A program made the position numbers and the translations under genes. Shown here in pieces: positions 21,345 to 23,661 of a stretch of DNA of 37,547 bases. The notes under the pieces were generated by a model. It was not told the origin of the DNA. It saw only the letters and a program-made list of their open reading frames with translations, and made no database searches. This DNA is from Bacteroidota bacterium (GTDB lineage: Bacteria; Bacteroidota; Ignavibacteria; Ignavibacteriales; Melioribacteraceae), in the NCBI GenBank assembly GCA_021812705.1, contig JAKAMT010000010.1, positions 1 through 37,547 of the forward strand, in the 5' to 3' direction. The stretch's first letter is position 1. Each line of letters opens with the position of its first letter.

Positions 21345-21556
21345 ATGGCAGAACGCGAAACCGGAATAGTAAAACGGTTTAATACTACAAAAGGTTACGG
21401 TTTTATTGAGCGCAGTGAGGGCGGAGATGATTTTGTTAAATTCTCTTCAATTCAGCCGGAGGGATACCGCTCTCTTTAGAAGGGTCAGAAGGTTGAGTTC
21501 ACCATGAAGACGGACATAAAGGAACTCAGGATCAAGATGTAAGAATTGTGAAATAG
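21345..21556 (+). pseudogene. Decayed cold-shock (CspA-type) gene
   Basis: The frame from ATG reads [44 protein letters not shown], recognisably a cold-shock domain with RNP1 KGYGFI intact. It then hits TAG at 21477-21479, at a position where relatives have Glu or Lys. Beyond it the same frame continues KGQKVEFT, after which the correct ending (EDGHKGTQ.. to RIVK) is found only in the next frame, so a base is missing near 21512. The conserved KWFN tryptophan is Arg (CGG), and the RNP2 segment has lost a codon and its histidine. Four separate lesions argue for real decay and not a sequencing slip. Confidence 0.82.
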
Positions 21557-21579
21557 CTTAGCATTTTTGTACTTAAAGG

Positions 21580-21603
21580 AGCGGCTCTATGCCGCTTTTT
21601 TTT
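21580..21603 (+). terminator. Intrinsic terminator after the csp remnant
   Basis: AGCGGC/GCCGCT stem with loop TCTAT followed by eight T. The survival of a good terminator fits recent decay of the cold-shock gene. Confidence 0.8.
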
Positions 21604-21714
21604 GTAAAATTTTTACCGGAGTTGTGAACTAAATATATCAGTAAATCGTTTTAGAGAATATAAAAGTTATTATATTTCGCTGCGAAAAAAATGATTTATG
21701 AAAGATCATTCATT

Positions 21715-21822
21715 ATGAATAATCTAAAGAGAAATATCACATCAGATTTTGAAGGTCCGGGATCATTCCGCCTCCTGTTCAAATCCATATTCAATTCGAA
21801 TCTCCGCTGTTGTTGTTGCTAA
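21715..21822 (+). CDS. Putative cysteine leader peptide ending in four cysteines
   Basis: A 35-codon ORF (43 codons if the in-frame ATG at 21691 is used) ends ..NSNLRCCCC-stop, with codons TGT TGT TGT TGC just before TAA. It lies 52 bp upstream of cysE, in a 318-bp gap that otherwise holds nothing I recognise. Runs of the end-product amino acid just before a stop are the mark of leader peptides; polycysteine leaders are known upstream of cysteine genes in mycobacteria. Ribosome slowing at the Cys codons when Cys-tRNA is scarce could alter RNA folding around the cysE start. I see no T-run terminator between leader and cysE, so control would more likely be at translation. A TATATTT element at 21671 could be the promoter -7 box. 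Confidence 0.6.
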   Translation: MNNLKRNITSDFEGPGSFRLLFKSIFNSNLRCCCC

Positions 21823-21848
21823 CATAGCTTCATCTTCATTTAATTCTA

Positions 21849-21864
21849 TTTAAAAATTTTTAAA
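21849..21864. promoter_or_regulatory. 16-bp AT palindrome overlapping the cysE ribosome-binding site
   Basis: TTTAAAAATTTTTAAA is a perfect palindrome that runs into the cysE Shine-Dalgarno sequence (AAAGG, 21862-21866; 8 bp before ATG). It could be a protein operator or a weak RNA hairpin occluding the site; in AT-rich DNA it may also be chance. Confidence 0.35.
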
Positions 21865-21874
21865 GGTATTTGTT

Positions 21875-22738
21875 ATGGAACCAATTGAATTGGGGAATAA
21901 TTCATTTTATGATTTTGCGGAATCGCTATTGTCGAACCGGCAGACCCATGCATGTACGGCCGCATTAAAAACGGAATCGATTGAGTATCTCAACGAACTG
22001 TTAAATCTTTTATTCCCCCATTTCTCAAACAAGATTTATTACACGCCTGAAGATATACTTGCAAAACTGCGGCTTATGGAGAGAAATCTTATTTCACTCG
22101 TAAAGCAGCTAAATTCGTCATTCGGAGGGGATCCGGTTTCTCTTTCAAAAGAATTTACAATCCGGATTCCTGTTATTTACACAAACCTGCTTGCCGATGC
22201 TAAAGCAATTTTTAGCGGTGATCCTGCGGCAGAGAGCATAGATGAGGTGATAATTGCTTATCCCGGATTTGCGGCTATAGCTATTTACCGAATCGCGCAC
22301 GAATTGTATTCTTTGAAGCTTCCGATAATCCCCAGAATACTTAGTGAATATGCGCATCAATTGACGGGGATTGACATTCACCCGGGTGCTTCAATCGGTT
22401 CTCCTTTCTTCATAGATCACGGAACGGGGATTGTAATTGGAGAAACCGCAGAGATCGGAAAAAATGTAAAATTGTATCAGGGGGTTACGCTTGGAGCTTT
22501 GAGTGTAGACAAATCTTTATCACAAACAAAACGCCATCCTACGATCAAAGACGATGTCATAATTTATTCACAGGCGGTAATTCTGGGGGGTAATACGGTG
22601 ATTGGAGAAAAAAGCATAATAGGCGGCAACGCATGGATAACGCAAAGTATTCCCCCTAACTCAACCGTGTATAATAAAAGCGAGGTCCGCGTAAGAACCG
22701 GCAATGAATTTGAAAACAATTTTGATTTTATAATCTGA
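21875..22738 (+). CDS. cysE: Serine O-acetyltransferase
   Basis: 287 residues. Forms O-acetylserine from serine and acetyl-CoA, the committed step of cysteine synthesis. The N-terminal ~160 residues are helical; the C-terminal part is a left-handed beta-helix with the hexapeptide run from [12 protein letters not shown] through [17 protein letters not shown], which includes the catalytic His and Asp, to [17 protein letters not shown]. The N-terminal domain is longer than that of the short EpsC type and resembles plant- and Bacteroidota-type enzymes. It is followed 11 bp later by cysK and preceded by a polycysteine leader ORF. Confidence 0.95.
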
Positions 22739-22749
22739 AGGAGATAAAA

Positions 22750-23661
22750 ATGAAAGCGAAAAATATTCTTGAGACAATAGGGAACACCCCGCATGTGAAA
22801 GTAAACAATCTTTTCTCTGATAAAAATGAAGTTTGGATTAAATTGGAGAAAGCAAATCCCGGAGGCAGCATCAAGGACAGAATTGCGCTCTCCATGATCG
22901 AGGATGCGGAGCGGAAAGGGTTATTAAAAAAAGGAAGCATAATAGTCGAACCGACTTCGGGCAACACCGGTATAGGCCTTGCAATGGTAGCTGCAGTAAA
23001 AAAATATGAACTCATCCTGGTAATGCCGGAATCAATGTCGTTGGAGAGAAGAAAAATTATGACTTCATTCGGCGCTAAATTAGAATTGACGCCGCGTGAA
23101 TTGGGAATGAAGGGCGCGATTGCAAAAGCGAATGAGATTGCCGCCGGTAATGAAAATGTCTGGATACCGCAGCAATTTGAAAATGCTGCAAACGTGGATA
23201 TTCATATTAAAACCACAGCCCGCGAAATTCTAAATGATTTTCCGGATGGATTGGATTATCTCATAACCGGTGTCGGCACAGGCGGTCATATTACAGGGGT
23301 TTCTAAAGTGCTTAAAGAAAAATTCCCCGCATTAAAAGTAATTGCCGTTGAGCCATCCGCATCGCCGGTTATTTCAGGAGGGGCTCCCGGTCCTCATCCG
23401 CTGCAGGGGCTTGGCGCAGGATTCATTCCGGATAATCTTGATACTTCTCTGCTGGACAGCGTTATAACTATTGCAAAAGAGGAGGCTTATAAATTTGCGC
23501 AGCGGGCGGCAAAAGAAGAAGGTCTCTTTGTAGGAATTTCGACCGGTGCCGCTCTTGCAGCAGTCGATAAAAAATTAAATGAGATCGGCAGCGGCAAGAA
23601 AATTCTTACTTTTAATTACGATACGGGGGAAAGATATCTTTCGGTAGATGATCTTTTTTAA
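22750..23661 (+). CDS. cysK: Cysteine synthase (O-acetylserine sulfhydrylase)
   Basis: 303 residues. Makes cysteine from O-acetylserine and sulfide with PLP. The PLP lysine is K42 in NPGGSIKDR; the substrate loop TSGNTGIG and the PLP-phosphate loop [10 protein letters not shown] are intact. The 11-bp spacing from cysE with a GAAGGAG site marks a two-gene operon under common control. A terminator follows immediately. Confidence 0.96.

Follow-up and report, generated by a model that had tools for sequence, protein, structure and literature searches.

A conserved polycysteine leader ORF upstream of cysE-cysK in Ignavibacteria: a probable cysteine-responsive attenuator with a proposed Rho-dependent output

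The cysE-cysK locus and its leader ORF

The window, a stretch of 37,547 nt from contig JAKAMT010000010.1 of a Melioribacteraceae genome (assembly GCA_021812705.1), carries adjacent genes for serine O-acetyltransferase (cysE) and cysteine synthase A (cysK), preceded by a short ORF that ends in four Cys codons. The features of the locus are:

21579–21603, forward strand: intrinsic terminator of the upstream gene (7-bp hairpin, -11.9 kcal/mol, then a T run)
21624–21654, forward strand: promoter-like stretch, GTGAAC and TTTTAG separated by 19 nt (putative function)
21691–21822, forward strand: putative cysteine leader ORF, 43 amino acids, MIYERSFIMNNLKRNITSDFEGPGSFRLLFKSIFNSNLRCCCC-stop
21808–21819, forward strand: proposed sensor, Cys codons TGT TGT TGT TGC, adjoined by TAA at 21820–21822
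21823–21874, forward strand: 52-nt gap between leader stop and cysE, a candidate Rho-loading stretch
21875–22738, forward strand: cysE, serine O-acetyltransferase (NCBIfam NF041874, TIGR01172; Pfam Hexapep)
22750–23661, forward strand: cysK, cysteine synthase A (NCBIfam TIGR01139)

Against NCBIfam, the encoded CysE scores 170.6 with the EpsC model NF041874, above the cut-off of 150, and 173.1 with the cysE model TIGR01172, under the cut-off of 210.65; CysK scores 410.8 with TIGR01139 (cut-off 350.95). The cysE gene starts at ATG 21875 and cysK at ATG 22750, leaving 11 nt between them, and by this spacing cysK is placed in one operon with cysE. The leader ORF contains a second in-frame ATG at 21715, which would give a product of 35 instead of 43 amino acids, and its C-terminus reads RCCCC-stop, the stop codon ending at 21822. 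A polycysteine ORF ahead of cysE-cysK had been described in an earlier note made by reading the sequence, and the ORF, its RCCCC-stop end and the 52-nt spacing are all confirmed here. Its run of four TGY codons is the sole one on both strands of the window, and a scan of both strands of the assembly (3,155,465 bases, 277 contigs) for TGYTGYTGYTGYTAR, that is four Cys codons followed by TAA or TAG, returned a single match, the leader ORF itself.

The intrinsic terminator at 21579–21603 sets the leader unit apart from the genes upstream. The promoter-like stretch, approximately 30–60 nt upstream of the ORF, would argue against a leaderless transcript starting at the ORF start codon, and of 20 leader loci inspected, 16 have a GAACT box 5' of the leader, the nearest match lying 22–91 nt upstream of its start. 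As the earlier note had stated, the gap between leader and cysE in the window has no detectable terminator-like hairpin; Rfam gave no match at gathering score within the window. Just upstream of the leader unit, a 44-aa ORF (21345–21479) matches only the first 41 of the 66 positions of the cold-shock domain and looks truncated or frameshifted.

Conservation of the cysteine-rich end

A search of 164 genomes of the order for this CysE gave a match in 74 (E ≤ 1e-50), and 74 upstream regions from 73 of them were judged by one rule for Cys-rich ORF ends (G113 contributed two regions; G147, with a partial match, was left out). The rule was passed by 45 of the 74 regions, or 44 after removal of L213, whose match seems to be the tail of a long ORF, 22 nt upstream of cysE; L217 was scored as leaderless on an estimated gene start, its match beginning at residue 86. 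In the window's family (f1), this CysE is present in 42 genomes, of which 40 carry a Cys-ending ORF in the corresponding position; these are related genomes and not 40 independent events, and the two others (L015, L016) have no leader by the rule. Cys-ending leaders occur in none of five regions of family f2 and in 4 of 27 of family f3, and the same rule passed 40 of 2834 control windows elsewhere in the same loci (1.4%). Together with the single match of TGYTGYTGYTGYTAR in the assembly, this difference between 40/42 and 40/2834 upholds the view of the earlier note that a chance origin is very improbable.

The last Cys codon of the f1 leaders adjoins the stop codon in 29 of 40 cases and is one codon away in nine, two codons in one and six codons in one. 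When leaders of different genera are compared by eye, no alignment is apparent in their N-terminal parts, and what persists is the Cys end. Since this end is kept family-wide and the rest of the leader varies freely, it is very probably a cysteine sensor. A look among relatives for an RCCCC-stop ORF before cysE, proposed as a check in the earlier note, was likewise rewarded, all seven genus members with this CysE having a leader that ends in three to six Cys codons (CCC to CCCCCC). Other leaders end in CICCCN, CACCCC, CCCCF and so on, and in 15 the end is GYxxTCIC-stop or a near variant. Across 17 polycysteine-type (polyC) loci the leader is 18–39 aa long and the gap to cysE has a median of 55 nt (range 47–68).

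In 12 genomes of the genus the TGYTGYTGYTGYTAR-type pattern matched 20 times, against six times for the reversed pattern. Six of the 20 matches fall in genomes with this CysE, five being cysE leaders and one preceding DUF2061-cysH (G009); the leaders of L004 and L006 end in CCC-TGA and are hence missed by a TAA/TAG pattern. The other 14 matches, from the CysE-lacking genomes G003, G005, G007 and G008, do not resemble leaders of cysteine genes and were set aside. Three of these genomes (G003, G005, G007; 99–100% complete) have no match to this CysE, though close relatives in the same genus have one.

A short ORF with codons for the end product before biosynthetic genes, and conservation of those sensor codons, are the marks of an amino-acid leader peptide, and both are present here. 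From these sequence comparisons, the short ORF is almost certainly a cysteine leader that would regulate cysE-cysK.

Leader type also tracks the phylogeny of the gene. In a tree of 70 CysE proteins with five leader-type labels, 10 label changes are needed, against a mean of 35.9 for shuffled labels. All 23 polyC-type leaders belong to one supported group (100/98), along with 11 leaderless f3 genes; 12 TCIC-type leaders fall outside it, and four leader-plus-terminator types share a second supported group (98/93) with five leaderless genes and two that have other Cys leaders. The leaderless f3 cysE genes nested inside the f1 polyC clade (L011–L014, L180, L185–L190) suggest that cysE moved between families, the leader having been lost or left behind.

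Leaders with terminators elsewhere in the class

In a class-wide search, 97 of 391 genomes matched at E ≤ 1e-40, 51 of them outside the order, and upstream regions were obtained from 40 of these 51. A looser Cys rule was passed by 13 of the 40 regions; read on the reverse strand, one of 40 passed, and among windows elsewhere the figure was 45 of 1976. Six are clear cases of a Cys leader followed by an intrinsic terminator (L260, L264, L265, L266, L272 and L279; -14.4 to -21.4 kcal/mol), and L296, which combines a Cys run with a terminator and a longer gap, is a possible seventh; we take L273, L276, L277, L287, L289 and L293 to be leaders with no detected terminator, or chance. In the leader-terminator cases outside the order, 9–15 codons separate the main Cys run from the stop. 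The leader tail pairs with the hairpin region in an antiterminator-like manner at -11.9 to -30.0 kcal/mol, these being duplex energies given without a shuffled control. L201 of f3 is built similarly, its Cys run lying 11 codons ahead of the stop and a terminator of -16.7 kcal/mol coming after. Of the 40 f1 leaders, 39 have no intrinsic terminator, the exception being L175 with a weak hairpin (-7.4 kcal/mol).

The terminator/antiterminator arrangement of a classical attenuator (trp/his type) is thus found between leader and gene in the six clear cases, and for the terminator in L201, and was not found between leader and gene in the window. The classical layout is present in the class; leaders of the window's family instead carry the sensor right at the stop and lack the hairpin.

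Proposed mechanism and alternatives

The best explanation of these observations is a cysteine-responsive leader peptide acting as an attenuator of the cysE-cysK operon with a proposed Rho output, a reading that we consider moderately probable as a whole. Regulation through Rho is itself the favoured output, its basis being base composition, and our confidence in it is evenly divided. Rho-dependent termination requires no hairpin terminator, and the absence of such a hairpin therefore does not exclude transcriptional control. We envisage that the leader is translated and that, with enough Cys-tRNA, the ribosome would reach the stop and depart, exposing the C-rich, G-poor RNA of leader and gap; Rho would then load and transcription would end ahead of cysE or in its early part. 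Under cysteine shortage, ribosomes would stall at the last codons, queue on the leader and cover the RNA, and cysE-cysK would be transcribed. The signal in the window's leader would be its hungry Cys codons, while in the sister TCIC group the nascent peptide is probably involved.

A C-rich, G-poor composition is what is expected of a Rho-loading stretch, and Rho is encoded in the genome. Over the first 45 nt after the stop, C/(C+G) is 0.743 in 31 terminator-less loci, against 0.500 for 22 leaderless cysE genes and 0.525 for 147 other genes (p = 9.8e-8 and 3.5e-12, respectively, values that ignore the relatedness of the loci), the controls being placed at -55 to -10 before the gene start and not after a stop codon. 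This excess of C over G sets in near the leader start, is broken where the Cys codons bring in G, has its maximum at +1 to +30 after the stop (0.75–0.83) and has vanished by +46. The skew is not unique to the leader, a comparable excess of C being present again within cysE, at +181 to +210 (0.69–0.71 in all terminator-less loci, up to 0.81 in the polyC set). Gaps after eight sulfate-operon leaders have a C/(C+G) of 0.86, and the window's own gap is mildly skewed (6 C versus 4 G). G-poor sequence could also simply keep the cysE start unstructured.

Translational attenuation, by which leader RNA would mask the cysE start until it is exposed by a ribosome stalling at the Cys codons, is an unlikely alternative in the light of RNA predictions. 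Although the narrow gap length of the 17 polyC loci would suit such a mechanism, and a stall simulation opened the start to some degree in 5 of 41 loci (z > 1; strongest in L251 at 5.2, L051 at 3.3 and L006 at 2.3), the simulated ribosome overall frees the start no more than in shuffled leaders (mean z 0.08, 41 loci; -0.40 for the window). Likewise, the Cys zone is predicted to pair with the cysE start region no better than shuffled sequence (mean z 0.09, 34 loci), and the fold energies of terminator-less leaders, as a group, scatter around those of shuffles; a masked start of the mycobacterial type that is opened by stalling did not emerge from these predictions. The translational route suggested in the earlier note, through an AT palindrome at the ribosome-binding site, is not supported by the same pairing and stall predictions, and no such palindrome was seen by eye at that site in the relatives viewed. 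An anti-RBS element, formed by the UGU/UGC run and AACAA close to the start of cysE, was considered and rejected on the duplex and stall predictions.

Nascent-chain arrest would place the sensor in the peptide, the leader end binding or sensing cysteine inside the ribosome tunnel and hungry codons playing a secondary part. We regard this as distinctly improbable for the window's leader, whose group has no conserved residues besides Cys and whose polyC ends differ in length and in neighbouring residues. Arrest peptides such as TnaC show constraint on the peptide at the leader end, and a pattern of this kind is found in the 15 TCIC-type f1 leaders: Tyr is at -7 in all 15 (8 TAT, 7 TAC), Cys at -3 and -1 in all 15, Thr at -4 in 13 and Gly, by three codons, at -8 in 12, with positions -16 to -9 varying among five to nine residue types, although the 15 genomes are related and L022 and L208 are near-identical in their last codons. 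Conservation of GYxxTCIC-stop with synonymous codon variation suggests the hypothesis of nascent-chain arrest in this sister group. A TCIC leader pattern run over 79 family genomes matched in 55 and was too noisy for use.

That the ORF regulates nothing, being of chance origin or encoding a small Cys-rich protein that has a function of its own, is very improbable, for while short ORFs are common and four adjacent thiols could bind metal, the Cys end recurs in 40 of 42 genomes against 1.4% of control windows, polyC leaders range over 18–39 aa with N-terminal parts not alignable by eye, and none of five leaders tried had an NCBIfam match.

Leaders and riboswitches of sulfate assimilation operons

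CysH was found in 14 of the 164 genomes of the order, at 15 places, of which 14 were scanned (L257, at a contig edge, was left out, and L255 offered 292 nt of upstream sequence only); the window's own genome has no CysH match. By eye, 12 operons (L051, L221, L250, L251, L052, L053, L252, L055, L254, L054, L258 and L256; L249 is the same operon as L221) have a first leader with Cys and/or Met codons and then an intrinsic terminator. At nine sulfate loci (L051, L221, L250, L251, L052, L053, L252, L055 and L253) there is then a second leader that has no hairpin and ends in CCC to CCCCC, that of L253 coming from the leader scan. Of 12 sources given to Rfam, L253 not being among them, four have a SAM riboswitch (RF00162) after the first leader:

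L054, 1075–1189: SAM riboswitch RF00162
L256, 1084–1182: SAM riboswitch RF00162
L258, 2506–2605, minus strand: SAM riboswitch RF00162
L254, 2293–2404, minus strand: SAM riboswitch RF00162

The second polycysteine leader and the SAM riboswitch occur together in none of these 12 sources, and both use the same slot. One of the nine second leaders lies 143 nt before a sulfate-binding protein gene, and the leader of L221 is followed first by a gene for a sulfate ABC transporter substrate-binding protein (NF008022).

Some first leaders mix Met and Cys codons (oriented positions L053 876–938, L221 about 1180–1275, L054 910–998 and L254 1113–1208), that of L221, MKQNKVNSAINTMMMAMCMCMNTYPPAEEIA, being an example; followed as they are by a terminator and an apparent antiterminator, they may be combined Met/Cys attenuators. 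A TTGACA-like / TTTGCA promoter-like pattern also recurs by eye just before the first leader in L221, L250, L251, L053 and other sulfate loci.

Comparison with known systems and implications

The response of TnaC, the leader peptide of the E. coli tna operon, is to excess tryptophan, and it induces a catabolic operon. The proposed mechanism resembles it in that a ribosome held at the leader end would cover an adjacent Rho-loading site, and differs in that cysteine shortage would switch on biosynthesis; the two have no sequence relation. A link between uORF stalling and Rho-dependent termination is also described, in the cited excerpt, for E. coli toiL-topAI (PMC12121999), which there differs in acting by start-site masking and in sensing antibiotics.

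Likeness to known polycysteine leaders, claimed in the earlier note, is evident, the window leader resembling those of Actinobacteria. Polycysteine leader ORFs with no terminator hairpin are reported in Mycobacterium, Propionibacterium and Bifidobacterium, with a Rho-dependent route suggested, in excerpts of PMC1262725. Excerpts of three further papers report cysteine-responsive attenuation in M. smegmatis, and describe the mycobacterial leaders as leaderless short ORFs acting by translational attenuation (PMC9031893, PMC13236596, PMC9094748). As far as these excerpts go, the systems share a run of Cys codons near the stop, a position before cysteine genes and the lack of a terminator hairpin, and the Ignavibacteria side is distinguished by its C-rich gap, tandem leaders and TCIC variants. 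The phylum is another one, and no sequence relation was seen. In the excerpt of PMC8632094, uORFC-8-2 of Rhodobacterales, before cysS, shares with the window leader tandem Cys codons read as hungry codons; unlike the terminator-less window leader it ends in an intrinsic terminator and controls cysS, a design to which the six clear leader-terminator cases of the class are, on that description, nearer than the window leader is. Leader-like sORFs appear in the excerpt on Bacteroides thetaiotaomicron (PMC7366714), and, according to that of PMC2965389, it is a recognized theme that attenuators of different kinds replace one another ahead of a single gene.

In agreement with the earlier note, no description of a cysteine leader in Ignavibacteria was found among the open-licence papers listed, and the system reported here is a well-conserved amino-acid leader system, of a kind for which those papers yielded none in the phylum. 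Tentatively, and as a rather unlikely reading when taken whole, Ignavibacteria may possess layered cysteine control, in which leaders with no hairpin, and with their Cys codons adjoining the stop, gate Rho-dependent termination of cysE-cysK and of sulfate assimilation and are able to take the slot of a SAM riboswitch, one branch having turned its leader into a cysteine-sensing arrest peptide (GYxxTCIC-stop). In related groups one kind of sensor is coupled with hairpin terminators, with a hairpin-free output and with a conserved peptide motif, so that changes of attenuator output under a retained sensor become testable. Exchange of a SAM riboswitch and a polycysteine leader before the same sulfate operon makes it similarly testable which sulfur signal is read, and GYxxTCIC-stop offers a compact candidate arrest peptide for cysteine.
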